Assembly: GCF_029689925.1 (NCBI RefSeq)
Contig: NZ_CP121445.1
Span: 5,130,501 to 5,194,500, forward strand
DNA from: Anaerocolumna sp. AGMB13025
GTDB taxonomy: Bacteria; Bacillota; Clostridia; Lachnospirales; Lachnospiraceae
Reading direction: 5' to 3'
Length of the DNA: 64,000 bases
A program made the translations under genes and the position numbers. The notes beneath the pieces are model-generated. The model was not told the origin of the DNA and did no database searches. It saw nothing but the letters and a program-made list of their open reading frames with translations. The stretch's first letter is position 1, and each line of letters begins with the position of its first letter. Below are positions 20,221-49,431 of the stretch, piece by piece.

Positions 20221-20594
20221 AGTAATTCTCCTTCTGTGACAATTCATTTATATAATTACTAGAATAATCCACTTTATAAAAAAGTGCAAGCTAATTTTTG
20301 AATAAATATTAAGTTAATTCTTTGCTTGCATTAATCTAAAAAACACATTTTTCGAATCTGGCCTGCTGATGATTTATTGTTCCGGCTTTTTGTCAGGTTG
20401 ACAAGTAAAATTTGTAATGCTATACTTCAACTATCCAATGAGTTTAAATCATAAGACATTGCTGCATAGTTCTAATCAAAATACCTGAATGAAATTTTCA
20501 ATAACATCGTCCTTTTATTTCAAAGTTCAGCAATTCTTTGATTTTGCAGCCGTCCTGATTCTGATTTACTCCTGGTATAGATAAGATATCAAGT

Positions 20595-20790
20595 GGCTCC
20601 ATATATTACTGCAAAGCAGATTTAAGGAATATGGAGTTAATAGGGAAACAGGTTCAAAGCCTGTACGGTCTCGCCGCTGTATATGAGGAGTTTACCGAGG
20701 CAGTATAAGATACTGTTAATAATCACTGAGTAACCTTACTTGGGAAGATTCAAAGTAAATGCTGATTCATAAGTCAGAAAACCTGCTTGA
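20595..20790 (+). ncRNA. Cobalamin riboswitch
   Basis: The aptamer features are present in order: GGGAAACAGGTTCAAAGCCT, then a GCCGCTGTAT junction, GAGGAG/ACCGAGGCAG, CACTGAG, GGGAAGA and the B12-box AAGTCAGAAAACCTGC. It lies upstream of genes for a DUF4430 protein and an ECF S component, thus likely turning uptake off when B12 is plentiful. A terminator follows at 20941. Confidence 0.93.
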
Positions 20791-20940
20791 TTTCGTACTG
20801 TAACCGCCACGAGGTTTTGGGGAAACGTACAATATTACTGACTGCTGCATAGGAATTCCTTTTTTTTGAATACCATGCTGTTTATTATCTGACTATATTT
20901 TTGTGATTATCAGGCACCTCTGTCAGTATTATAAATGTGT

Positions 20941-34753: not shown

Positions 34754-35974
34754 TTAATTCTTATCAATTTCTAACAGGGTCTGCAACAGAACATTGGCAC
34801 CTTTGAAACAGTTTTCAATGGGTGTGTATTCGATTTCACAGTGGCTGTGACCTCCAACACTTGGAACAAATATCATAGTCGTAGGTATGATATCGGTTAT
34901 AAACTGAGCATCATGTCCCGGTCCGCTGTACATTCTCTTTGTAGTATAGCCGTAAGCTTTTGCATTCTTCTCAACATAGTCTACGAATTCTGTATAAAAA
35001 GAAACCGTTGCCCGTGACCAGGCTTCGTTATAGCTTACCTTACATTTTTCAACTTCCTCAGGAATTGCTTTTATGATAGCCAGAACCTGTTTAATAACCT
35101 CAGGGTCCTGATGTCTGGCATCCAGTGTAAATTTCACCACATCCGGAATTATAGTATGGATATTCGGGTGGGCCGATATTTTACCTGTAGTATAAACTAA
35201 TTTACTATCCAGCTTATCCAGTTCCTCATGTAGATACTGTATTGTCTTTACAGCCGCATATAGTGCATCTTTCCGGTATTTCATAGGGGTAGTGCCTGCA
35301 TGACCGGCCTGACCGTAAAAGGTGAATTCATAATTAATCATACCACACACACCTTCAACCACACCAATATCGATACCTTCTGCTTCCAAAACCGGTCCCT
35401 GCTCTATATGAAGTTCTACTAAAGCGGCGTATTTATCAGGTGACATACGGTTTAATGCATCTCCCATGTATCCGCTGGCTTCCAGGGCTTCCTTAAAGGT
35501 CACTCCTTCCGTATCTTTGGAGGCAAGCATTTTTTCTTTATCGAATTTACCGGTAATTACACCGGAGGACATCATAGCCGGTTCAAAACGAGCGCCTTCT
35601 TCATTGGTCCAGATTACTACGGTTAATGGATGGCGATGAGGGATTTTCTCAGTAATAATGGTCTCCACGGCTTCTAACGCTGTAAGTACCCCGAGTATAC
35701 CGTCATAATTACCGCCCTGCCGTACAGAATCTGCATGGGAGCCTGACATGATAGCCGGTAAATCTTCTTCTCCTGGAATTGTGGCATAGATATTAGCCAT
35801 GTCATCCGTTACAATTTTCATACCTAAAGCTTCACATCTTTTACAAAATTCCGCCCTTGCCGCTAGGGCTTCTAAGGATAAGGAAAACCTGGTTATTCCA
35901 CCATTTCCCGTATCACCAAATTTTGAAAATGTCTTGATTTTATCCTCTAATCTTTCCTGGTTGCAGCTAATCAT
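34754..35974 (-). CDS. M20-family amidohydrolase, likely N-carbamoyl-beta-alanine amidohydrolase
   Basis: A 406-residue Zn enzyme of the hydantoinase/carbamoylase branch. Metal ligands are seen in SGSHADSV, GNYDGILG, NEEGARF, VELHIEQGP and the late SHCEIEYT, with a GPGHDAQF loop. It would split 3-ureidopropionate into beta-alanine, CO2 and ammonia. The start is at 35974 (AAAGGATG upstream). It stands downstream of the pyrimidine degradation genes in the same direction. Allantoate or another carbamoyl amino acid remain possible substrates. Confidence 0.88.
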   Translation of the reverse strand: MISCNQERLEDKIKTFSKFGDTGNGGITRFSLSLEALAARAEFCKRCEALGMKIVTDDMANIYATIPGEEDLPAIMSGSHADSVRQGGNYDGILGVLTALEAVETIITEKIPHRHPLTVVIWTNEEGARFEPAMMSSGVITGKFDKEKMLASKDTEGVTFKEALEASGYMGDALNRMSPDKYAALVELHIEQGPVLEAEGIDIGVVEGVCGMINYEFTFYGQAGHAGTTPMKYRKDALYAAVKTIQYLHEELDKLDSKLVYTTGKISAHPNIHTIIPDVVKFTLDARHQDPEVIKQVLAIIKAIPEEVEKCKVSYNEAWSRATVSFYTEFVDYVEKNAKAYGYTTKRMYSGPGHDAQFITDIIPTTMIFVPSVGGHSHCEIEYTPIENCFKGANVLLQTLLEIDKN

Positions 35975-36045
35975 AATAAAACACATCCTTTCCTGCTGTT
36001 ATTTAGTACTACAAACTACAATTAATCCTATTCTGCACATCTCAG

Positions 36046-36722: not shown

Positions 36723-37826
36723 TTATAAATCAAAAACTGTCTTATATATATGAATTAAATCTTCCTCTGTTGGAATTACGATACAATTCGCTATGTTTTT
36801 AGCTTTTATTGCAATGGATGCGAATTCCATGATTTCTTCTTCTGTCAGTTTTTCTTTTTCTCCAAGGAGTTCCATTATAATTTTTTCCAGTTCGGCTAAG
36901 TCTTTTAGCTTCATGGCTGTTAATAATGTCTTAATCCGTTCTGGCTTTTCTTTCTCCACAAGTTTTAAGAATTCGGTAATTAAAAGTCCATTGGCTCTAC
37001 CGTGGTCAATATCTTTAAAATAAGTAAGGGAATAACCCATAGAATGAACTGCTGTTGTACCGGTATGAGCTATAACAATACCACCAAGGGTGGAAGCATA
37101 TAAAAGCTTGCTTCTGTCTTCTCTGGTAAGCGTAAAGTTTTTAAGGTTTTCAAACTCTTCTGCTATGATGGATATACCCTCTAAAGCAAGTGCATCCGTA
37201 AGAACATTGGACCTGTTTGACAGATAACCTTCTACGGAATGGGACAGTGCATCCACTGCAGTATTGATGGTAGTGGTTTTGGAAAGGGATTCCATGTATT
37301 TACTGTCTAAAAAAGATACGTCTGGAAACAGGAAGGGTGCAGCCACCGTAGTTTTCGTTTTTGCTGCATCATTGGTCAGAATGGAATATTGGGTAACTTC
37401 TGAACCGGTTCCTGCAGTTGTGGGGATAAACACCATGGGAAGTACCTTTTCTTCATATTCACCGGAGAACAGCTTTTCTCTTTTAATATCCTGACTGGCT
37501 AAAAGGGCAATGGCTTTGGCGGCATCCATAGGAGAACCGCCTCCGATGGCAATGATAAAGTCTGCATTTTCACTTTTAGCAAGCTCTGCACCTTCGTAAA
37601 CACAGTCAATGGTGGGATTACTCATTACCTTATCATAGACTGCATATTCCTGACCGTTTTCAGTAAGTGCTTTTGTAACATCTTTTAAGGAACCATTTAA
37701 AACCGCAGACCTGCTGCCGGTTACGATTAATGGCTTTTTACCAAGTTTTTTTAGTATTTCAGCATTTTTTATTACACAATCATCACCCATGATTATTTTC
37801 GTGGGCATAAAAAATTGTAAATTCAT
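36723..37826 (-). CDS. Iron-containing alcohol dehydrogenase, candidate malonate semialdehyde reductase
   Basis: A 367-residue type III alcohol dehydrogenase. Its NAD-binding stretch is IGGGSPMDAAKAIALL and TTAGTGSEVT; metal ligands are in NTAVDALSHSVEGY (Asp, His), HSMGYSL (His) and DHGRANG (His). The start ATG at 37826 has GGGTG before it. Being downstream of a beta-alanine-type aminotransferase, it would reduce malonate semialdehyde to 3-hydroxypropionate, regenerating NAD(P)+. Other aldehydes are possible. Confidence 0.88.
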   Translation of the reverse strand: MNLQFFMPTKIIMGDDCVIKNAEILKKLGKKPLIVTGSRSAVLNGSLKDVTKALTENGQEYAVYDKVMSNPTIDCVYEGAELAKSENADFIIAIGGGSPMDAAKAIALLASQDIKREKLFSGEYEEKVLPMVFIPTTAGTGSEVTQYSILTNDAAKTKTTVAAPFLFPDVSFLDSKYMESLSKTTTINTAVDALSHSVEGYLSNRSNVLTDALALEGISIIAEEFENLKNFTLTREDRSKLLYASTLGGIVIAHTGTTAVHSMGYSLTYFKDIDHGRANGLLITEFLKLVEKEKPERIKTLLTAMKLKDLAELEKIIMELLGEKEKLTEEEIMEFASIAIKAKNIANCIVIPTEEDLIHIYKTVFDL

Positions 37827-37838
37827 ATGAACACCCAT

Positions 37839-38121: not shown

Positions 38122-39450
38122 TTATTCCAATATTTCTTTATCTACCTCAGAAAGCACTTCATCCACTTTCTTCAGTTCTTCCCTAATCTGTTCTGACGTA
38201 ATGATAAGAGGCGGTGCAATTAATATCATATTTTCATGTGAATAGGTCATAAAGCCTTTTTTAGAAAGCCTTCCGATTATACTCTTCATGATTCCTTTCG
38301 AATCACCGCCATATGGAACGAGAGCTTCTTTGGTTTCCTTATCCTTAACTAGCTCCACAGCAGAGAATAAACCGATATATCTGACATCACCGACACTTGG
38401 ATGCTTTTCTTTCAAAGCTTCTAATTCTTCCCCAAGTACTTTGCTTACCTCATTGACATGATCAAGGATTTTCTCATCGTCATAAAATTTAAGACATGCT
38501 ATTCCGGCAGCACAGGCAAGAGGATGACCACTGTAGGTAAGACCGCAGGAAAGGAAATTATCATTAAAATAGTCTGCTATGTCTTTACTAACCGCAACGC
38601 CTCCTAGCTGAACATAACCACAGGTAACGCCTTTGGCAAAGGTAACCATATCGGGCTTTATATCAAAATTTTCAAAAGCAAACATCTTACCAGTTCTTCC
38701 AAAGCCAGCCATAACTTCATCACAGATTAACATAATGCCGTAATCATCACAGATTTGCCTGATTCCTTTTAAATACCCCTTAGGCGGAATAATGATTCCG
38801 TTGGAACCAGTTATGGTCTCCAGGACAATTGCAGCTACACTATTTGCTCCTTCATAACAAATCTGTTCACGGAGTTTCGATACATAATATTCTGCCGCAG
38901 CTTCTTCCGATTCAAAGGGTATCGTTTCACGATAAAGATAAGGGTCAAAGAACTTAACAAAGCCTGGTATGCCCGGTTCTAATGGATATCTTCTTGGTTC
39001 ACCAGTTAAATTACCAGCTCCGAAGGTAGAGCCGTGATAACTTCTATAACGGGAAAATACTTTGTTCCTACCAGTATACATTCTCGCCATTTTTACCGCA
39101 TTTTCATTGGCATCAGCACCGCCGTTGGTAAAAAATATCTTACCCATATTATCAGGAAGGCGTTCAATTAACATTTTGGCAAGTTCGCCTCTGGGTTCAC
39201 TGGCATAGCTTGGGGATATATAACAGTACTGTTCTGCCTGTTCTTTAATGGCATCTATGATATAACGGTTTCCATGACCAACATTTAAGTTAACCAGTTG
39301 GGCAGACATATCGGAATACCTGATGCCCTCTGTGTCCCACATATAGATACCCTCTGCTTTTACTATCGGTATGGGGTTTAATCCTCTTTGCTTTGACCAG
39401 GACTGCAGTACATAGCCGGTCTGTGTATTTTTAATTTCTTCTGATGTCAT
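38122..39450 (-). CDS. Class III PLP aminotransferase, likely beta-alanine aminotransferase
   Basis: A 442-residue omega-type aminotransferase. Family features include FTNGGADANENAVKMAR, RYRSYHGSTFG (aromatic and phosphate site), CDEVMAGFGRTG and TFAKGVT, whose Lys forms the internal aldimine. It would move the amino group of beta-alanine to pyruvate or 2-oxoglutarate, giving malonate semialdehyde. The start ATG at 39450 follows TTGGAGTGG. The regulator gene ends just upstream. Confidence 0.9.
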   Translation of the reverse strand: MTSEEIKNTQTGYVLQSWSKQRGLNPIPIVKAEGIYMWDTEGIRYSDMSAQLVNLNVGHGNRYIIDAIKEQAEQYCYISPSYASEPRGELAKMLIERLPDNMGKIFFTNGGADANENAVKMARMYTGRNKVFSRYRSYHGSTFGAGNLTGEPRRYPLEPGIPGFVKFFDPYLYRETIPFESEEAAAEYYVSKLREQICYEGANSVAAIVLETITGSNGIIIPPKGYLKGIRQICDDYGIMLICDEVMAGFGRTGKMFAFENFDIKPDMVTFAKGVTCGYVQLGGVAVSKDIADYFNDNFLSCGLTYSGHPLACAAGIACLKFYDDEKILDHVNEVSKVLGEELEALKEKHPSVGDVRYIGLFSAVELVKDKETKEALVPYGGDSKGIMKSIIGRLSKKGFMTYSHENMILIAPPLIITSEQIREELKKVDEVLSEVDKEILE

Positions 39451-39464
39451 ATCATCCACTCCAA

Positions 39465-40634
39465 TCATAAATTATTTTCTAAAATTTCTTTAATATTAAA
39501 GGCAAGCCAAAGTCTTGCAATTTCATCGTAATCAAGTTTGATTCCCAGGTATTCACGTATCATCTTCATCTTATAATTCACTGTGTTCCGATGGACATTC
39601 ATCTGTGCGGATACCTTTTGTATGCTTCCGTTATTCTCAAGATAGCATTTTAAGGTATTTAAATAATCCGTGCTGTGGGAAGCGTCATAATTCATAATTT
39701 TATTAATGGTATCATTTAGATACCGTTTTAATATTCCTGCATCCTCTACTGCAAATATAAGCTTATATATTCCGGTGTCCTGGTATTTTAATATGGTTTT
39801 TTCCAAAAGCCTGGCGGTATTAGAGGCCGTAACTGCCTGCTTATAACAAGCCTGCATCCCTCCGTAACCGATAATCGTATCTGAGATACCGATATAAAAC
39901 TGAACTGCTTCAAACCTGACTGAGAGTTCCTGACTTACGATTACAGCATGGTTCTCCATCTGAGTGCTGTTAATACCAGATCCCGCTATTACCAGATAAT
40001 TTTCCTGATTAAAGATACAGATGGGTTTTTCTGCACTGGTCATAATACTTTCTAACTCAAAACGTATGGACTGCCAATCTTCACCGGATATAACAGAACC
40101 ATTATTTCCCGCCTGTAACAGGAGCAGGCTGTATTCCACATAATTATGGAAGCCTCTGCGGTCTAGGGTCCCGGCATAAGCATCTTTATTTTCCGGGGAA
40201 AATATTAAATTTCTAAAAGCTGCGGCAATACTGGTTTCATTTTCTTCATTGGCAATAATTCTATGGCAGAAATCATAGGTAACATCAATTAAGTGGATTT
40301 CCCAAGGAACGATGAATAAGGGGAATTCATTTTCGTCACAGTAATTGACTACATATCTTGGTACATTTTTGATATAGGGACCCACATTTAGCACCAGACC
40401 AATAGCTCCGTGATTTAATAGACTTTTTACGAAATCCACAATCCAATCCGTTCCAGTGTGGGCGATGCCCGTAGTAAGAATTAGTTCATTGCCATGTAAA
40501 AATCCCGGAACCTCACTGTCTTCTACCATATGGACCCATCTTACCAGGCTTTTCATACCGCTTTGACCGGCAATTAGTTTTATATTATAATTCTTTTCCG
40601 AATTAGCAAATAATCTGGATAAGGTAATTGCCAT
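39465..40634 (-). CDS. PucR-family transcriptional regulator
   Basis: A 389-residue protein. It has an N-terminal purine-catabolism-type ligand domain (about 1-125), a GGDEF-like middle and a C-terminal helix-turn-helix (LKCYLENNGSIQKVSAQM, NVHRNTVNYKMKMI), which fits the PucR family. The start was set at 40634 because AAAGGGGGTAAAT lies just before the ATG. Inside the pyrimidine locus, it is the likely activator, sensing a pyrimidine or a breakdown product. Confidence 0.92.
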   Translation of the reverse strand: MAITLSRLFANSEKNYNIKLIAGQSGMKSLVRWVHMVEDSEVPGFLHGNELILTTGIAHTGTDWIVDFVKSLLNHGAIGLVLNVGPYIKNVPRYVVNYCDENEFPLFIVPWEIHLIDVTYDFCHRIIANEENETSIAAAFRNLIFSPENKDAYAGTLDRRGFHNYVEYSLLLLQAGNNGSVISGEDWQSIRFELESIMTSAEKPICIFNQENYLVIAGSGINSTQMENHAVIVSQELSVRFEAVQFYIGISDTIIGYGGMQACYKQAVTASNTARLLEKTILKYQDTGIYKLIFAVEDAGILKRYLNDTINKIMNYDASHSTDYLNTLKCYLENNGSIQKVSAQMNVHRNTVNYKMKMIREYLGIKLDYDEIARLWLAFNIKEILENNL

Positions 40635-40737: not shown

Positions 40738-42231
40738 TTAGCTTGGTTTTGGCACCCTTCTTCCGCTGCTTATTGCCCCACAGGGGCATACCAGCAGGCA
40801 GAGATGACATCCGACGCAGTTTTTAGCAATCAGTTTTGGTCTGTGTTCATGTTCCTCGAACTTTATTGCCTGATGTCCCGCATCCTCACAAGAGATAAAA
40901 CATCTGCCGCAGCCGATACATTTATTCTTATCTACGATCGGATATGTCAGGGTCGTTCTGTCCAAAAGATCAGGATGAACAAAGCTTTTCAGGGCACTGC
41001 CGCATAACTGATGGATACTGTTATAGCCCTGTTCTTTTAGGAAGGCTTTCATACCAAGTATCAGATCGTCGATAATACGGTAACCGTACTGCATAACCGC
41101 TGTGGTAATCTGGATATTTTCACAGCCCAGGGCAATAAATTCCGCCGCATCCTGCCAGGTTTCAATTCCGCCCATACCGCTTATCGGTACGCCCTTTAGC
41201 TGTTCATGGCTTGCCAAATCATGGATGAATCTTAACGCCACGGGTTTTACAGCCTTGCCGGAATAACCAGATACTGCTGATTTGCCGTTAATATGCGGAG
41301 CAGGTGCCATATCATAAAGATTGATACCCGTAATACTTTTGATGGTATTAATCGCTGCGATTCCGTCTGCTCCGCCCTCCATTGCAGCGATTGCCGGAAT
41401 CTCCATATTACCCAGATTTGGTGTCATTTTGGCCAGAATGGGAAGATGGGTTCCTTTTCTAGTAAATTCAGTATAGCGTTTAACAAGCTCCGGCGACTGT
41501 CCTACATCTGCCCCAAGTCCATGCGCCGACATATGGGGACAGGAAAAATTACATTCGATGATATCAACTCCGATATCCGTTACGGCCTTGGCTAGTTTCG
41601 TCCACTCCTCCTCGGTCTGACCCATTATGGAAGCGACAATGATTTTCTCCGGGAAATCTTCTTTTAACTTTTTTAAATACATCAGATTCTCTTCCAGGGA
41701 ATGTTCTGCTATCTGTTCCAGATTCCGAAAACCAATAAAAGGTGTTCCTTCCTTATTGGTGGCTGCAAATCTTGGCGATACCTCTTCCGGCTGTAAAAAC
41801 CCTATGGTTTTAAAAACAATACCGCCCCAGCCGGCCCTTAATGCATTGGCACACATTTCATAATTACTGGCAACCACAGAGGAAGAAAGGAAAAAGGGAT
41901 TTTCACAGGTGATACCGCAAAATTCAACAGATAAGCTCACCTCCTTTAAATCAGTCACCTTACTTTCTATATGTTCTGCCATATCCCGTATCCGTATGGG
42001 ATAATCGTAATGAATGCAGGCTTTCTCACAGGGAGCATCACAGTTCTTACATTGGTCTTTTATAATTTTACCAAAATCATTCTTCGTATTTTCAAATCTC
42101 ACCGACCGGATAAATCCAGCCGGATCAAAGCCTTTCTCACAGGCTTTGGTGCAAGCCGGCAAATAGCAGAGGAGACACCTGGCGGCTTCACTGGCTAAAA
42201 ATTGTTTTGAATATGATTTGTTTACCGGCAT
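40738..42231 (-). CDS. Dihydropyrimidine dehydrogenase-like flavoprotein with PreT-like Fe-S head
   Basis: A 497-residue protein. Residues 1-90 have eight Cys in two clusters (C19, C22, C27, C31 and C61, C64, C68, C72), as at the N-terminus of PreT/DPD. The FMN barrel (about 95-400) has ECNFSCPHMSAHG, AKMTPN and INTIKSI, matching PreA. The end has two ferredoxin motifs (CIGCGRCFISC and CVGCHLCLLVC). No FAD or NADPH domain is present between head and barrel, and no separate PreT gene is in the window. It probably reduces uracil/thymine with ferredoxin or another donor. Where mammalian DPD has a catalytic Cys (from memory), this protein reads GADVGQ. Confidence 0.9.
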   Translation of the reverse strand: MPVNKSYSKQFLASEAARCLLCYLPACTKACEKGFDPAGFIRSVRFENTKNDFGKIIKDQCKNCDAPCEKACIHYDYPIRIRDMAEHIESKVTDLKEVSLSVEFCGITCENPFFLSSSVVASNYEMCANALRAGWGGIVFKTIGFLQPEEVSPRFAATNKEGTPFIGFRNLEQIAEHSLEENLMYLKKLKEDFPEKIIVASIMGQTEEEWTKLAKAVTDIGVDIIECNFSCPHMSAHGLGADVGQSPELVKRYTEFTRKGTHLPILAKMTPNLGNMEIPAIAAMEGGADGIAAINTIKSITGINLYDMAPAPHINGKSAVSGYSGKAVKPVALRFIHDLASHEQLKGVPISGMGGIETWQDAAEFIALGCENIQITTAVMQYGYRIIDDLILGMKAFLKEQGYNSIHQLCGSALKSFVHPDLLDRTTLTYPIVDKNKCIGCGRCFISCEDAGHQAIKFEEHEHRPKLIAKNCVGCHLCLLVCPCGAISSGRRVPKPS

Positions 42232-42305: not shown

Positions 42306-43667
42306 TTACTTTTTCCTTGATACACGTTTTATGAATTTACCCCAGCCGGCTTCTCCGACAAAGTCTCCGTTATCAAAAACGAGTCTTCCTCTGGAATAGG
42401 TCTGTATCGGATATCCGTGAAGCTTAACCCCCTCCCAGATGGTATGGTCATAATCAGAATGCATGGCCTCCTTCGTTATCGTCATGTCTTTCTTCGTATC
42501 GTATATAACAATATCCGCATCCTTTCCAACGGATAAAAAGCCTTTCGTTTCACAGCCAAAGATTCTGGCAGGATTCTCACAGCATAATTCCACTACCTTT
42601 TGATAGCTTACTTTTCCTTCATTGGCACTGGATAACATGTAAGGGTACATGTTTTCGATCGCTGCACAGCCATTGGGTATCTTGGTAAAGTCATCTATGC
42701 CCCAATCCTTTTCATAACTCTGGAACGGACAGTGGTCCGTTGCTATGGTATCAATATCCCCTCTCCTGATTGCTTCCCATAAAGCATCCTGACTTTCCTG
42801 TCCCTTAATGGGCGGAGAGCATACAAAGTTTCTGCCATCCTCCCTTTTGTAAACTTCCTTGGTAAAGTGCAGATAATGAGGGCAGGTTTCCGAATAGATT
42901 TCATAACCTTCATCCTTGGCTTTTGTCACGGCTTCTACTCCGGCTTTATTAGCAAGATGCACAATATAAAGTGAAGTATTCAGTGATTTTGCCCAACTAA
43001 TGGCACGTTCATCGGCTTCCGCCTCTACGAACTCCGGTCTTGACTTATAGTGGTACCAGGCACTGGTTTTACCTTCTGAAAGATACCGTTTTGTAAGCAT
43101 CCCAATAATTTCTTTATTTTCCGCATGGACACTGATTTGACCGCCGCATTCCTTTGCTTTTTCCAGTACTTTATAGAATACACCGTCATCCACACCAAAG
43201 TCATAAACCATAAACACTTTAAAAGAAGGTACTCCAAAGTTTACCGCTTCCTCCATGGAATCTAACAGGTCTCCATGAACATCCTTAACTCCCACATGAA
43301 ACGCATAGTCCACCGCAGCCTCAGGGCTTGCTAAGGCATCTCGCCTTTTTACCGTATCTACCAGGTTTTCATTAAAATCCTGCAGTGCAAAATCAAAAAC
43401 TGTCGTTGTACCGCCGCAGGCTGCAGCCCTGGTACCGGCAAAATATCCGTCCGCCGAAACCGTTCCCCCAAAGGGCATTGCCAAATGTGTGTGTACATCA
43501 ATTGCACCGGGCAGTACCAATTTTCCGGAAGCATCTACTACCTTAACTCCGTCCACCGGCTGTATATCTTGTGCAATGGAAACTATTTTACCGTCTGCTA
43601 CTGCAATATCTGCCACATAGCTCTCTTTTGAATTTACAATCGTGCCATTTTTGATTATCAGATCCAT
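42306..43667 (-). CDS. Dihydropyrimidinase
   Basis: A 453-residue D-hydantoinase-type amidohydrolase with a binuclear zinc site. H59 and H61 (DVHTHL), K150 (PSFKVF, the carbamylated bridge), the His in VHAEN, CPHYLH and the Asp in ATDHCPF are present. It opens dihydrouracil to 3-ureidopropionate. The start was set at 43667 (AAGGAGG upstream); an upstream extension to 43766 has no such site. It lies directly before the dehydrogenase gene. Confidence 0.94.
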   Translation of the reverse strand: MDLIIKNGTIVNSKESYVADIAVADGKIVSIAQDIQPVDGVKVVDASGKLVLPGAIDVHTHLAMPFGGTVSADGYFAGTRAAACGGTTTVFDFALQDFNENLVDTVKRRDALASPEAAVDYAFHVGVKDVHGDLLDSMEEAVNFGVPSFKVFMVYDFGVDDGVFYKVLEKAKECGGQISVHAENKEIIGMLTKRYLSEGKTSAWYHYKSRPEFVEAEADERAISWAKSLNTSLYIVHLANKAGVEAVTKAKDEGYEIYSETCPHYLHFTKEVYKREDGRNFVCSPPIKGQESQDALWEAIRRGDIDTIATDHCPFQSYEKDWGIDDFTKIPNGCAAIENMYPYMLSSANEGKVSYQKVVELCCENPARIFGCETKGFLSVGKDADIVIYDTKKDMTITKEAMHSDYDHTIWEGVKLHGYPIQTYSRGRLVFDNGDFVGEAGWGKFIKRVSRKK

Positions 43668-43821
43668 ACCTTTACCTCCTTTTTCATACCTTTCTATTAA
43701 AATGAAAGAACAAAGCTGACGCGCTGTCACGACAGTGACAATCTTCCTTAAGTGCGTCATGCACATCCTGCCCGGAAGGCTTTTTAATTTTTAGGCAAGT
43801 TCTTAGAACTTACCCATAAAT

Positions 43822-43862
43822 TAAAAAACCCCCGCCTCCTTCGCTTCGATAAGAGGCGGGGG
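43822..43862 (-). terminator. Strong terminator after the binding-protein gene
   Basis: CCCCCGCCTC/GAGGCGGGGG with a T-run on the minus strand, 9 bp past the stop. It could separate importer from catabolic genes and set a higher level for the importer. Confidence 0.9.
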
Positions 43863-43870
43863 ACTATACC

Positions 43871-45073
43871 TTATTTATTTAATTTATAAACCAGTACAAG
43901 TCCAGATCTTTGGTATACCTGAGATACTTCAAGTAAGTCCATACCGCCTGCATTGGCTGCAATTAAGTTTGATACCCAGGTAACACCAAAATCTACGGAA
44001 CCGTTATTAACGGCTGTGGTTTCACCGATGTCACCGCCGCCGGGTACAATATTTACTTCCAGTCCGGCATCTTTATAATAACCTTTGTCAAGGGCTACAT
44101 AGTATCCCATGAACTGCGCCTGTGGCAGCCACTTTAACTGAATGGAAACTGATGTTTTCTCCGGTGTTCCAAATTTACCGTCTGTTGAAGCATTGGCTGC
44201 TTCCCAGTAAGAAGTGTCTCTGATGTTATCAAGGGTTAACGCTTTTAGTTTATCTGCTGCTGCCGCATCATCCAGTTTAATATACTGCTTTGCCAGCTCT
44301 AAAGTCTGACCAAGAGCTGTATCATCCATTTTGCCGTAGTCTGTAACCGTTGCACCTTTTGTATCTGTTTCGACTAACTTCTTAACTTCATCTGCCATAT
44401 ATGCCTGATGTTCAGAAGATACGGAAGAACCGTATTTATATACGATTTCAGCGGCTTCCTCCGGATTCGCACAAGCATATTCCCAGCCTTTCATGGAAGC
44501 ATAGATAAAAGCTTTTACTGTATTGGGATTCGCTTCGGCAAAGGCCCTGGTACAAAAGATATTATCTTCTAACATTGCAACCCCTTCATCGTTCATATCA
44601 ATATAACCTACGGAATCTCCGTAGCCATAGCCGCCGTCATAGGAATTAACCACAAGACCATATTCGTTATAGGTCATTGCAGAAGCAAGGGAAATGGAAT
44701 CATCATCAAAGCCGTCCATGTCAAAGGCCTGGCTTAAGAAGGTGGTCGGCTGTCCGTATTTGGTTAATAAAGCCTGAATCTCGTATTCATTACCAATACC
44801 CCAGTTACCAACCTTGCCCTCCGTAGCAGCTTTAACTACGATATCTTTCACCGATTCACCTTTGTTAAAGTAAGGACCGGTTGTTTCCGGTGCAGCTTCT
44901 GTTGACTGGGTCGGTTCGGGAGTAGTCTCATTGGCAGATTCGTTTTCTGTATCTTTTGTATCTGCTGTGGTGTTTGCAGATGTATCTGCCGTATTGGATT
45001 TACTGCCGCAGGCTGCGAGTGATAACACTAGTATTAGAGAAATTACAATCATAAACACTTTTTTCTTCTTCAT
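43871..45073 (-). CDS. NMT1/Thi5-like ABC binding lipoprotein, circularly permuted
   Basis: A 400-residue lipoprotein (lipobox SLAACGS, Cys22, Thr/Glu linker 23-70). Ordinary members of this family start with the strand segment QLKWLPQAQFMGYYVALDKG and continue with GKKVGNWG-type residues after about 100 positions. Here GKVGNWGIGNEYEIQ comes first (86-100), the usual C-terminal part follows (to about 300), and the normal N-terminal part (308-400) comes last, ending at SGLVLVYK. The whole domain is present in one frame, so this is a circular permutation at the hinge. It feeds the two permeases and ATPase upstream; the likely ligand is a pyrimidine. Confidence 0.9.
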   Translation of the reverse strand: MKKKKVFMIVISLILVLSLAACGSKSNTADTSANTTADTKDTENESANETTPEPTQSTEAAPETTGPYFNKGESVKDIVVKAATEGKVGNWGIGNEYEIQALLTKYGQPTTFLSQAFDMDGFDDDSISLASAMTYNEYGLVVNSYDGGYGYGDSVGYIDMNDEGVAMLEDNIFCTRAFAEANPNTVKAFIYASMKGWEYACANPEEAAEIVYKYGSSVSSEHQAYMADEVKKLVETDTKGATVTDYGKMDDTALGQTLELAKQYIKLDDAAAADKLKALTLDNIRDTSYWEAANASTDGKFGTPEKTSVSIQLKWLPQAQFMGYYVALDKGYYKDAGLEVNIVPGGGDIGETTAVNNGSVDFGVTWVSNLIAANAGGMDLLEVSQVYQRSGLVLVYKLNK

Positions 45074-45135: not shown

Positions 45136-45963
45136 TTATTTGCGGTTTTTCAACAAAATACCTTCACAGGCCATCAGTATTCCATACATGACAATACCAA
45201 TGAGACAGGCAACTCCGATATAGGCCCAGGCTGTGGCATATTGGGCTAATACAATATTTTCCCTGATCTGCCTGCCGATGCCGGTTATATACTCGGCAAA
45301 ATATTCACTTACCAGTGCACTGATTACACTTGCAGGAACACTGACCCGCAGGGCAATGAAGATGTAGGGTACACTGTTTGGCAGCCTTAATTTAATAAAT
45401 GTGGTTATCTTTCCTGCTGCATAGGTTTTCATTAAATCTTCTGAAAATGGTTTTAGTTCCGTTAGTCCCCGAAAGGCGTTCACGCTCATAGATGCGGTAC
45501 AGATTACTGTTACTACAAGAACCTTGGCTACCATACTTCTTATATTGGCATCCTTGCTGACATCCTTGGTCCAGTTGGTAATTACGGGCGCCAGGGCAAC
45601 GATTGGGACTGCGTTAAAAGCAGAAACGATATTGAGCCCCCCTGCACCCCATCTTGGGAAAACAGCAGCAATAATTGCAATCAGGTAACCGAATAAGGAA
45701 CCTAAAATCAGTCCGCAGACGGAAACGATTACCGTTGCCTGTATATTGCCTGCTATTTTAGGGAAATTATCTATAATAATGGTAAGTATCCTGTTTGGCA
45801 GCGGAAGTGTAAATTCATCCGTATTCAAAAGCTTATGTAAAATCTGAGTCTGCCAGAGTATTAAGATCAGAATACCAAATAGTAAAGGATACAAGACACC
45901 GGTTAAGGCTTTGAAGCGAACTACTGATTTTCTCTGTCTTTTTTCTACTTGTGCCTTCTGCAT
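45136..45963 (-). CDS. NitT/TauT-type ABC transporter permease
   Basis: A 275-residue inner-membrane permease with five to six helices and the coupling loop ending RLPNSVPYIFIALRVSV. Its ATG shares one base with the stop of the other permease. Member of a four-gene importer for pyrimidines or a related compound. Confidence 0.92.
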   Translation of the reverse strand: MQKAQVEKRQRKSVVRFKALTGVLYPLLFGILILILWQTQILHKLLNTDEFTLPLPNRILTIIIDNFPKIAGNIQATVIVSVCGLILGSLFGYLIAIIAAVFPRWGAGGLNIVSAFNAVPIVALAPVITNWTKDVSKDANIRSMVAKVLVVTVICTASMSVNAFRGLTELKPFSEDLMKTYAAGKITTFIKLRLPNSVPYIFIALRVSVPASVISALVSEYFAEYITGIGRQIRENIVLAQYATAWAYIGVACLIGIVMYGILMACEGILLKNRK

Positions 45964-46793
45964 TACGATTCCTCCTTCTTCCGTCTTAAAGCCCTTTTAT
46001 GGGGCGATAACAATTTTTCGGCCACACCCATCAGATAAAAACTTAAAATTCCTATAATGGCACTTAAGAATACAATCTGCCAGAATACCATAATTGACAT
46101 TGCATGTTTGAGGGATTGAGATAACATACATCCAAGTCCTCCGTCTCCTTGCAAGGTGTCTACCAGAATAGATGCAGTGATCGCCATAGGTGCGGATATC
46201 TTAAGACCTGTAAAAAAGTAAGGGATGGAAGAAGGTATCAGGGTTTTTACATAAATCTGAACCTTGGTAGCCGCACATAAAAACATAAGATCATGTTTTT
46301 CCCGTTCTACGGCTTTAAAACCTGCCAGGGTATTGGTGGCCACCGGGTAAAAAGTTAAGATGGCGGCAATGATGATTCGGCTGGACCCAATATCACGGGT
46401 AATGGCAAGGACGATAGGTGCCATACCAAGTATGGGAATCATCTGGATTATCATCAGATAAGGGAAGGCGATCTTTTCAACGATTCCTGATAAATTCATT
46501 AAAAGTGCAAGGATAAATCCACCTGCTGCACCGATTGCAAATCCCTCCCCTGCCCGGATTAAGGTTGCACCGGCATTGGACAGAACGATTTGCAGTGCTG
46601 TCTGACCCATACTGACAGGTTTTGTGCTGAATATGGAACCGATAATCTGATAGAAATGGGGCAGAATATTTTCCGGTGTTCTTTTGGTACCGGCTATATG
46701 AAACGCTCCGATTTCCCAAATAATTAATACGCCAATCAGCCAGACAAACGTTACGATTCCATTAGAGGAAAGAAGTTTTTTAACCTGCTTCAT
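45963..46793 (-). CDS. NitT/TauT-type ABC transporter permease
   Basis: A 276-residue permease with the coupling loop TLIPSSIPYFFTGLKISAP. Two different permeases form the pore here, while many NitT/TauT systems use two copies of one. The start ATG at 46793 follows GAGGGGG; it lies two bases after the ATPase stop. Translation of the three genes is coupled. Confidence 0.92.
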   Translation of the reverse strand: MKQVKKLLSSNGIVTFVWLIGVLIIWEIGAFHIAGTKRTPENILPHFYQIIGSIFSTKPVSMGQTALQIVLSNAGATLIRAGEGFAIGAAGGFILALLMNLSGIVEKIAFPYLMIIQMIPILGMAPIVLAITRDIGSSRIIIAAILTFYPVATNTLAGFKAVEREKHDLMFLCAATKVQIYVKTLIPSSIPYFFTGLKISAPMAITASILVDTLQGDGGLGCMLSQSLKHAMSIMVFWQIVFLSAIIGILSFYLMGVAEKLLSPHKRALRRKKEES

Positions 46794-46795
46794 AA

Positions 46796-47569
46796 TCAAA
46801 CCCCCTCAAAACTGTTTCTTACCTTAGAGACCAATGCCGTAAATTCTATAGTATCTTTTATTTCTTTTGTCCTGGGTCTTGGCAGCGTAATATCTACCAC
46901 TGCCGATAATCTGCCCGGATGAGGGGATAATACACATACCCGGTCGGATAAAAACACAGCCTCTGCAATGTTATGGGTTACGAAGATGACGGTTTTATTG
47001 GTTTTACTCCATATCCGTAATAAATCTTCGTGAAGTTTTTCTCTGGTAAATTCATCAAGGGCTGAAAAAGGTTCATCCATTAAAAGAATTTCAGGTCTGA
47101 TTGCCAAAGCTCTTGCAATACCAACCCGCTGCTGCATACCTCCGCTTAACTGATGAGGATAATGGTCTGCGAACTTGGTAAGACCTACTAAATCAAGCAT
47201 TTTCTCCGCTCTGGCTTTTCTATCTTCCTTTTTCACCTTCATAAGTTCTAAGGGTAATTCAATATTTTTTCTTACTGTCCGCCACTCATATAAGACAGGA
47301 CTCTGAAATACCATTCCGTATTTTCTATTAAGCCTTGCCGACTCCGTTGTGTCTCCTTCTATCAGTACCTCACCAGAGGTAGGTTTCAATAAATTGGCAA
47401 CAATCCTTAAGAGTGTTGTCTTACCGCAGCCGGAAGGGCCAAGCAATGAGATAAATTCTCCTTTTTGAATATCCAGGCTGACACCGGTTAAGGCTGTAAC
47501 CTCATTAGAATCCGCCTGATATATCATGCTGACATTATTTAATCTTATCTCGATACCACCGTTATCCAT
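46796..47569 (-). CDS. NitT/TauT-type ABC transporter ATP-binding protein
   Basis: A 257-residue ATPase with Walker A GPSGCGKTTLLRI, the Q-loop VFQSPVLYEWRTV, signature LSGGMQQRVGIARALA, Walker B ILLMDEPFSALDE and H-loop VTHNIAEAV. The start was set at 47569 because AAAGGAG lies before the ATG; an upstream open frame has no such support. It heads the pyrimidine importer operon. Confidence 0.94.
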   Translation of the reverse strand: MDNGGIEIRLNNVSMIYQADSNEVTALTGVSLDIQKGEFISLLGPSGCGKTTLLRIVANLLKPTSGEVLIEGDTTESARLNRKYGMVFQSPVLYEWRTVRKNIELPLELMKVKKEDRKARAEKMLDLVGLTKFADHYPHQLSGGMQQRVGIARALAIRPEILLMDEPFSALDEFTREKLHEDLLRIWSKTNKTVIFVTHNIAEAVFLSDRVCVLSPHPGRLSAVVDITLPRPRTKEIKDTIEFTALVSKVRNSFEGV

Positions 47570-47738
47570 ATAGACAAGACTCCTTTCAAAATGTAATGTA
47601 GTCCAAAGTTGTATGCTAAGGCAAAACAGCACTGACGCTGTAAATAAAAATACACGCTTAAGGTGTATGGTTACTGCCATCACACCCCTGCGTGTGTTTT
47701 TCACTGACAAACACCTGTTTACAGATGTCTGTTTATAC

Positions 47739-47784
47739 AAAAAGGCAATGGGCTTTACGTTTTAGTAAAGCGCCATTGCCTTTT
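47739..47784 (-). terminator. Terminator-like hairpin in the importer leader
   Basis: AAAAGGCAATGG pairs with CCATTGCCTTTT, with a further GCTTTAC/GTAAAGC inner stem, and is followed by T's on the minus strand. It stands between the predicted start (near 47819) and the ATPase gene, so it may be an attenuator. Confidence 0.7.
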
Positions 47785-48258: not shown

Positions 48259-49431
48259 TTATCTCAAATTTAAAATATAATCGGCTGCTTTTTCCAATCC
48301 CTCTCCCTGGTGAAAGGATTGACTTATTTTTCTAGCAGCTTCTTTATAGGAAGATTCCAATAATAGTTTATCAATGGAGGTTTTAAGGAGTTCAGGGGTT
48401 ATCTCATTCATTTTTAAAGGAATTCCAGCACCTAAACCTGCGATTCTCTTTGCTACCATAAACTGGTCATTAACCATCGGCAGTACTATTATGGGTACTT
48501 CAAAGTACAACGCTTCGCTTACACTGTTAAATCCTCCATGGCTGATAAATACATCGGTTTGCTTTAAGATTTCCAATTGTGGAACATAATCTTTTACAAT
48601 AAAATTATCCGGTATTTTACCAAGAGAGGATATATCGCATTTTTTACCTACGGACATTACTACCTTAAAAGGGGATTCTTTAAGTGTATCCATACACAGC
48701 TCATAAAACCGGTTAAAGTCTGTATTAATCGTACCCAGGGATATATAGATGACCTTTTGCCCTTTCAACTCATCAAAGGGAAAGCTTACTTCTTCTTTTC
48801 TTTCGGCAATCGAGGGTCCAAGGAACTTATAACTTTCATCAAAGCTGTCTCCCCCCGGGTTAAATTCCCTGGAAGTATAAGTTATATTCAAATCACCTTT
48901 ATTGATAAATAAATCCAGTACACTTGGTACTGCCACCTGCCATTTCGCACATACCTCATCCAGCACATGATAAAATTCATCCAGCTGGGGATGGGTTCCC
49001 GGCACAAGCATGGAATCCGGAACCGGAAGCTGGTTCATAACAAAGGATGAATTGGAACAGATGACAGGTACCTTCAAGATATTTTTGAGAAAATATCCTG
49101 CGCCTAAAATAGAATCATAAATAATATAATCAAACTTCATTGCAGCAATCTTATGAAGGACCTCTGGTATTAATACTTCATCATATTTAATAATATACTC
49201 AACCAGCGTATAAAAAGGATGATTGCCCGTAGGCCGATAGTTCTTATAAAACTCTTCCAGGGTATCTCCTGCTGTAATTATGTTCGCTCCTGCCGCTTCC
49301 ACCTTGTCCTTAAAAATATGGGAGCAAAAATACCAAACTTCTTCCCCTCTGCCAGTCAGTTCAGATACCAGCGGAATAGTAGGGTTAAAATGTCCATGTA
49401 AATTACCATTAATAAATAATATCTTAGCCAT
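48259..49431 (-). CDS. MGT-family (macrolide-type) glycosyltransferase
   Basis: A 390-residue GT1 enzyme. The N-terminal acceptor domain begins ILFINGNLHGHFNPTIPLV; the donor-binding motif HGGFNSVSEAL with VPMVNDQ is in the C-terminal domain. Such enzymes glucosylate macrolides or other small hydrophobic molecules, giving resistance, or build glycolipids. AAGGAGG precedes the ATG. The promoter holds a perfect inverted repeat, suggesting drug-dependent derepression, though no regulator lies next to it. Confidence 0.92.
   Translation of the reverse strand: MAKILFINGNLHGHFNPTIPLVSELTGRGEEVWYFCSHIFKDKVEAAGANIITAGDTLEEFYKNYRPTGNHPFYTLVEYIIKYDEVLIPEVLHKIAAMKFDYIIYDSILGAGYFLKNILKVPVICSNSSFVMNQLPVPDSMLVPGTHPQLDEFYHVLDEVCAKWQVAVPSVLDLFINKGDLNITYTSREFNPGGDSFDESYKFLGPSIAERKEEVSFPFDELKGQKVIYISLGTINTDFNRFYELCMDTLKESPFKVVMSVGKKCDISSLGKIPDNFIVKDYVPQLEILKQTDVFISHGGFNSVSEALYFEVPIIVLPMVNDQFMVAKRIAGLGAGIPLKMNEITPELLKTSIDKLLLESSYKEAARKISQSFHQGEGLEKAADYILNLR

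Follow-up and report, generated by a model that had tools for sequence, protein, structure and literature searches.

A circularly permuted NMT1/THI5-type binding lipoprotein encoded beside putative pyrimidine-degradation genes in Clostridia and spirochaetes

An ABC importer encoded next to putative pyrimidine-degradation enzymes

The window analysed here is a 64,000-nucleotide stretch of Anaerocolumna sp. AGMB13025 (contig NZ_CP121445.1, positions 5,130,501 to 5,194,500). An ORF on its minus strand, running from an ATG at 45073 to a stop codon at 43871–43873, encodes a substrate-binding lipoprotein, P0001. This gene is the last of an ABC import set that includes an ATPase and two permeases, and pathway enzymes follow it:

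46796–47740, minus strand: ABC ATPase (profile matches)
45963–46799, minus strand: ABC permease 2 (BPD_transp_1; Pfam)
45136–45963, minus strand: ABC permease 1 (BPD_transp_1; Pfam)
43871–45073, minus strand: P0001, permuted NMT1/THI5-type substrate-binding lipoprotein, 400 amino acids (ORF, Pfam, PDB sequence match)
42306–43697, minus strand: dihydropyrimidinase, PydB-like (TIGR02033 above cut-off)
40738–42231, minus strand: PreA-type dihydropyrimidine dehydrogenase, PydA-like (profile matches; passages of PMC7332683)
39465–40721, minus strand: PucR-family regulator (Pfam)
38122–39468, minus strand: class-III aminotransferase, putative PydD-like role (profile matches)
36723–37838, minus strand: iron-type alcohol dehydrogenase, putative PydE-like role (all matches below curated cut-offs)
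34754–35986, minus strand: hydantoinase/carbamoylase-family amidase, putative PydC-like role (TIGR01879 above cut-off)

Passages of PMC7332683 lay out PydA, PydB, PydC, PydD and PydE as enzymes of the reductive pyrimidine pathway. The enzymes encoded at this locus fit that degradation pathway, with the PydD, PydE and PydC roles being provisional. The predicted dehydrogenase has ferredoxin-type domains at both ends, including an N-terminal Fer4_20, and its Pfam matches include no FAD/NADPH domain; it resembles the ferredoxin-dependent PydAc of Clostridium chromiireducens as presented in part of PMC7332683. With its lipobox and the adjacent permease and ATPase genes, P0001 has the features of the binding lipoprotein of an ABC importer, and, as befits a role in pyrimidine uptake, it is encoded with candidate enzymes of reductive pyrimidine degradation.

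Directly past the stop codon of the binding-protein gene, the coding strand has a strong hairpin followed by a U run (43823–43862; fold z −2.85, with 2 of 200 shuffles folding equally well), which was absent from the output of a pattern scan. This hairpin may reduce the expression of the downstream enzymes. Elsewhere in the window, 48259–49431 encodes a macrolide-family glycosyltransferase (TIGR01426 above cut-off), and the sole Rfam match at gathering scores is a distant cobalamin riboswitch (20577–20804, plus strand).

P0001 carries the segments of an NMT1/THI5-type protein in exchanged order

The gene can be divided as follows, from the N terminus of the protein to its C terminus:

45008–45073, minus strand: signal peptide and lipobox, residues 1–22 (LAAC, Cys22; sequence, orthologues)
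44819–45007, minus strand: tether, residues 23–85 (sequence, model; low model confidence up to residue 60)
44564–44818, minus strand: putative ancestral lobe 2, residues 86–170, now first in the chain (alignments, model)
44183–44563, minus strand: residues 171–297, with a crossing strand, the putative C-terminal part of ancestral lobe 1 and the old C-terminal helix (alignment, model)
44153–44182, minus strand: junction of old C terminus and old N terminus, residues 298–307 (rotated alignment with L120)
43901–44152, minus strand: ancestral N-terminal part of lobe 1, residues 308–391, now near the C terminus (PDB match, alignments, model)
43874–43900, minus strand: old first hinge strand SGLVLVYK, residues 392–400, now the C terminus (alignment, model, orthologue ends)

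P0001 matched the Pfam NMT1 family PF09084 significantly (E 2.9e-28; 99.7 bits against a cut-off of 20.5), in two stretches that do not keep the segment order of the profile. The best stretch, residues 319–397, aligned with profile positions 2–80 of 216. Because the start of the profile thus lies behind the remaining segment, we class P0001 as a permuted NMT1/THI5 variant. The same exchange was seen against PDB chain 4nmy, in which residues 7–72 correspond to residues 308–374 of P0001 and residues 100–287 to residues 76–268 (whole-sequence E 2.2e-18). None of the 15 NCBIfam matches to P0001 reached its own curated cut-off, and we caution that profile searches split such permuted proteins.

We refer to the moved segment (approximately residues 305–397) as 1a and to the remaining segment (approximately residues 86–293) as 2/1b. 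In all 20 ordinary relatives inspected, segment 1a came first (starting at query residues 284–309 and ending at 394–397) and segment 2/1b second (starting at 87–172 and ending at 233–293); the comparison was given 22 loci, the other two being a permuted locus (L130) and a contig-cut locus without a full ORF (L131). The ordinary protein L121, for example, matched query residues 303–397 at 61% identity (E 1.5e-35) and then residues 87–280 at 43% (E 5e-36). Across the eight nearest ordinary relatives, identity was 51–61% in 1a and 42–45% in 2/1b. That P0001 is an ordinary protein misread because the two lobes of type II folds are alike can be dismissed: its predicted structure does align sequentially with many ordinary type II folds, but resemblance between lobes cannot yield such identities in exchanged order.

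The circular permutation in P0001 is therefore confirmed. The sequence-only reading, which had proposed a permuted protein with a complete domain, one lipobox and one linker, is borne out by the sequence, by the kept relatives described below and by a confident structural model; P0001 has one lipobox-like motif, LAAC at residues 19–22, and one tether. Two of its details needed adjustment. The moved part, placed at 308–400, is indeed at the C-terminal end, although its borders are nearer 305–397, and GKVGNWG opens the domain but not the protein, standing at residue 86 after a 63-residue tether that extends from Cys22.

The permuted order is shared by relatives in two phyla

A genome scan with one genome per species confirmed 159 relatives, of which the best 80 were kept. 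The match was colinear with the permuted order in all 80 kept loci, from residue 86 or earlier to residue 395 or later, at 63–85% identity to P0001. These loci come from Clostridia and spirochaetes and include both isolates and metagenome-assembled genomes (MAGs). The same order was also found in genomes G246, G532, G418 and G524. In an even sample of genomes from the phylum, 2 of 299 had a colinear match (G000 and G246), as did 5 of 291 in an even sample from the class; G000 and G246 occur in both samples. The class sample also held a contig-cut match (G466) and an ordinary-order match (G472), with E values of 1e-18 or better. An assembly error or an isolated case of a broken, rearranged gene, either of which would undo the permutation, is excluded for practical purposes by the open ORFs and shared order of the 80 kept loci and by the four further genomes. 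The permuted form is old enough to be common to two phyla and is functional by all signs.

Each segment occurs once per kept locus, counting the ORF and flanks of up to 1.8 kb, in line with circular permutation. The ends of the proteins are likewise conserved, with 77 of 80 orthologues stopping 1–7 residues past the VYK of LVYK and the other three having a changed VYK. Where a locus leaves enough room, the ATPase and both permease genes lie directly upstream (70 of 70), and dihydropyrimidinase lies directly downstream in 63 of these 70. The seven exceptions are all spirochaete loci; five have an oppositely directed dihydropyrimidinase and PreA nearby (39–42% identical), and in the flanking DNA examined at L038 and L046 neither was present.

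The predicted fold suggests new termini just past a hinge strand

In the rotated alignment, P0001 continues as ...RDTSYWEAANASTDGKFGTPEKTSVSIQLKW at the point where the ordinary protein L120 ends (...VDTSYWEAATK). The junction reads ...IRDTSYWEAANASTDGKFGTPEKTSVSIQLKW and consists of the old C-terminal helix, approximately ten residues and the old first strand. At the other border, the ordinary protein L112 reads LVSK-KSAGINSAADLKGKK-VGNW, and the permuted domains begin near GKVGNW. Permuted rows shown in the alignment are without a lobe 2 loop of approximately seven residues that most ordinary rows shown have, and they carry an insertion around SYDGGYGYGD that is absent from the pyrimidine-operon ordinary rows shown (P0001 residues 105–113 and 143–153).

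The AF2 model of P0001 has a pTM of 0.80, with 274 of 400 residues at a pLDDT of at least 90. Its strand order, 4+1+4+1, is compatible with a two-lobe type II fold, and its best structural matches are binding proteins, as judged from sequential Foldseek alignments; many ordinary type II folds align in this way over approximately residues 84–400, and 4nmy is absent among the best 50 matches listed. Residues 86–170 contain strands at 88–90, 113–115, 129–133 and 155–159; within residues 171–297, the crossing strand spans 171–175 and the old C-terminal helix, DTSYWEAA, spans 286–293. The first hinge strand has its counterpart in the C-terminal strand, 392–398 (SGLVLVYK), and the second lobe opens with the strand found here at 88–90. 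A chain that crosses between the lobes only once was considered and rejected, since the old hinge strand is retained at the C terminus.

Both termini are most likely located on the second lobe, a short way beyond the hinge, with neither crossing strand lost; this placement draws on the strand order of the model, the general layout of type II folds and sequential matches that end shortly after the second crossover of the ordinary fold. The model further suggests that the cut follows directly on the first hinge strand and coincides with the position that pseudo-symmetry pairs with the ordinary N terminus. The lobes would thereby swap order, both hinge strands would survive and the lipid tether would now be on the other lobe. 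The proposal that the permutation cuts at the hinge and places the new termini there thus holds approximately, although the predicted termini lie just beyond the first hinge strand, on the second lobe.

Ordinary-order relatives occupy the same operon position

Family f29, another family of the same phylum, had a match in 56 of 148 genomes. All 54 paired places, in 53 genomes, had the ordinary order; the permuted order did not occur among them, and 15 rows were unpaired. Ordinary forms hold the same operon position in f29, Sinorhizobium (pSymB, L118) and Deinococcus (plasmid, L119), and the permeases of these operons are 28–38% identical to those of the window. We screened 19 fetched ordinary loci, with L116 left out, and found pyrimidine-operon genes near the ordinary form in 14 of them (L110–L113, L118, L119 and L121–L128), with an aminotransferase as the sole pathway enzyme seen in five (L123 and L125–L128). 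The flanking DNA examined contained a PucR-type match as the only operon-type gene at L114, L129 and L132, and no pyrimidine-operon genes at L117 and L120. In both segments together, 48 alignment columns had the same residue in at least 95% of 81 permuted and 10 ordinary proteins, the latter chosen from the 20.

A probable single ancestral rearrangement

We built a tree from the rotated alignment, with rotation borders that we set ourselves, using 33 of the 81 available permuted rows and 20 ordinary rows. All permuted rows fell on one side of a branch (support 100/100), and L116, a distant paralogue from the same genome as P0001, fell among the ordinary rows. L116, L119, L120 and L129 had long branches, and L120 joined the permuted group at 88/81, a placement marked as uncertain. 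A tree of the ATPase and permeases from 38 loci (23 permuted and 15 ordinary; 2 of 40 were dropped as incomplete) also separated the two forms by one branch, with a local support of 1.000. Spirochaete and clostridial proteins intermingled in the rotated-alignment tree, which suggests transfer between phyla.

In trees of single segments (15 permuted and 20 ordinary rows), each segment alone fell within the group to which the pyrimidine-operon binding proteins belong, with a support of 100 for 1a and 86–89 for 2/1b. The permuted group itself was supported at 93 by 2/1b alone and weakly (58) by 1a alone. L120 (G472:C82), an ordinary-order clostridial relative, may be the nearest extant ordinary form.

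These trees bear on whether another binding-protein gene supplied the C-terminal segment, as was considered for TpMglB-2 in passages of PMC4990184. L120 is sister to the permuted proteins by 2/1b (support 100) but not by 1a, as recruitment could explain. However, both segments lie inside the same ordinary group and reach their highest identities with one and the same f29 subgroup, and the junction retains both the old C-terminal helix and the old N-terminal lead-in, so that we regard recruitment as improbable.

We instead favour a single ancestral rearrangement, probably through tandem duplication, after which copy one would have lost its beginning and copy two its end. The old C terminus would thus have been fused to the old N terminus through approximately ten residues, and the chain would have opened after the first hinge strand, ahead of the first strand of lobe 2. 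Across the ORFs of the 80 kept loci and their flanks of up to 1.8 kb, we found no duplication intermediate or remnant. The type II binding-protein fold is pseudo-twofold symmetric, and for this reason the product would again be a two-lobe clamshell with two hinge strands, its lobes swapped. Because the signal peptide and tether stay N-terminal, they would hold the other lobe. Ligand binding, closing and permease docking would be expected to proceed as usual.

One possible explanation for the permutation is selection for membrane tethering, with the anchor moved off a ligand-contacting terminus, as proposed for TpMglB-2 in passages of PMC4990184. Consistent with this idea, 72 of the 80 permuted proteins have a lipobox-like motif (71 by regular expression and L017 by eye). 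However, ordinary f29 relatives likewise carry a lipobox-like motif and tether in the rotated alignment, and 8 of the 80 permuted proteins (7 spirochaete and 1 from a Clostridiales MAG) have no lipobox; tethering alone is therefore insufficient, and we consider it an unlikely driver. The spirochaete loci L030, L032, L038, L041, L046, L059 and L063 have neither a lipobox nor a dihydropyrimidinase directly downstream.

The ligand is likely to be uracil or thymine

As the operon carries the candidate enzymes of reductive pyrimidine degradation, the ligand of P0001 is likely to be uracil or thymine. The 48 conserved columns and the operon type shared by both orders make a common ligand likely; uracil or thymine would most likely serve the permuted and ordinary forms alike. 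Hydantoinase-type enzymes accept several rings, and the solved NMT1 relatives bind thiamin and thiamin pyrimidines, judging by their entry names (4nmy and 3ix1). The ligand might thus be a related compound, such as a dihydropyrimidine, hydantoin, cytosine or a thiamin pyrimidine such as HMP. Against this, the window holds a full set of reductive uracil-pathway candidates and no thiamin riboswitch at the Rfam gathering score. We consider a related compound rather unlikely.

Discussion

P0001 is very probably the lipid-anchored pyrimidine-base binding protein of an ABC importer and a natural permutant of the NMT1/THI5-type fold that arose by a single ancestral rearrangement. With somewhat less confidence, we propose that a one-time permutation at the pseudo-symmetry mate of the N terminus exchanged the roles of the lobes and put the anchor on the formerly free lobe. 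The permuted form would then have spread between Clostridia and spirochaetes; in orthologous pyrimidine operons of other bacteria, its ordinary parent would have remained in service.

Binding proteins with a natural permutation have been described before. According to passages of PMC4990184, TpMglB-2 (Tp0684; 'Type Ic / Cluster Bc') is a naturally permuted ABC binding lipoprotein with a type I sugar-binding fold, in which the N-terminal strands have moved to the C terminus and a fourth crossover has been created; adaptation to tethering is raised there as a possibility. P0001 resembles TpMglB-2 in being a natural permutation of a binding lipoprotein, with a range that covers treponemes and Gram-positive bacteria. 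By contrast, P0001 has a predicted type II NMT1 fold, apparently keeps both crossovers and has an ordinary-order parent in matching operons. The sequence matches listed for P0001, 10 in one search and 7 in another, included no MglB; its absence from lists of fold matches carries no weight.

The glycine-betaine binders OpuAC of B. subtilis (2b4l) and ProX (1r9l and 1sw1) belong to a permutation family found by CPSARST, a comparison of structures, at less than 24% identity, as reported in part of PMC2395249. They are 11–14% identical to P0001 in structural alignments, whereas the eight nearest ordinary parents of P0001 share 51–61% in the moved segment. The sequential Foldseek match of the P0001 model to OpuAC (TM 0.32–0.35 by query; rmsd 13–15 Å) was dropped as proof of a shared permuted topology.

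P0001 belongs by sequence to PF09084, the family of the thiamin-binding protein 4nmy and the formyl-aminopyrimidine-binding protein 3ix1, with the segment order exchanged. The ordinary pyrimidine-operon binders of f29, Sinorhizobium and Deinococcus share its operon position and conserved residues and are unpermuted. Together, P0001 and the ordinary forms are a clean parent–permutant pair, and it is the closely matched operons of parent and permutant that make P0001 unusual. No account of a permuted NMT1-type or pyrimidine-binding protein appeared in the titles and opening lines of abstracts among the matches listed from the open PMC literature. Passages of PMC11036815, which describe the breakdown of 5-fluorouracil by preTA and hydA in Anaerostipes, give no account of a binding protein, nor do those of PMC7332683.

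In our judgement, few fixed permutations that cross phyla can be traced so clearly to an ordinary parent that is still recognisable in the same operon. This example suggests that selection can keep a two-lobe clamshell whose chain has been reopened at its symmetry mate, and it offers a natural control for engineered permuted biosensors. It also bears on the question, raised for TpMglB-2 in passages of PMC4990184, of why permuted binders occur in Gram-positive bacteria and treponemes. If our account is correct, the permuted and ordinary proteins would provide a natural matched pair for testing how lobe order and the side of the tether affect ABC import.
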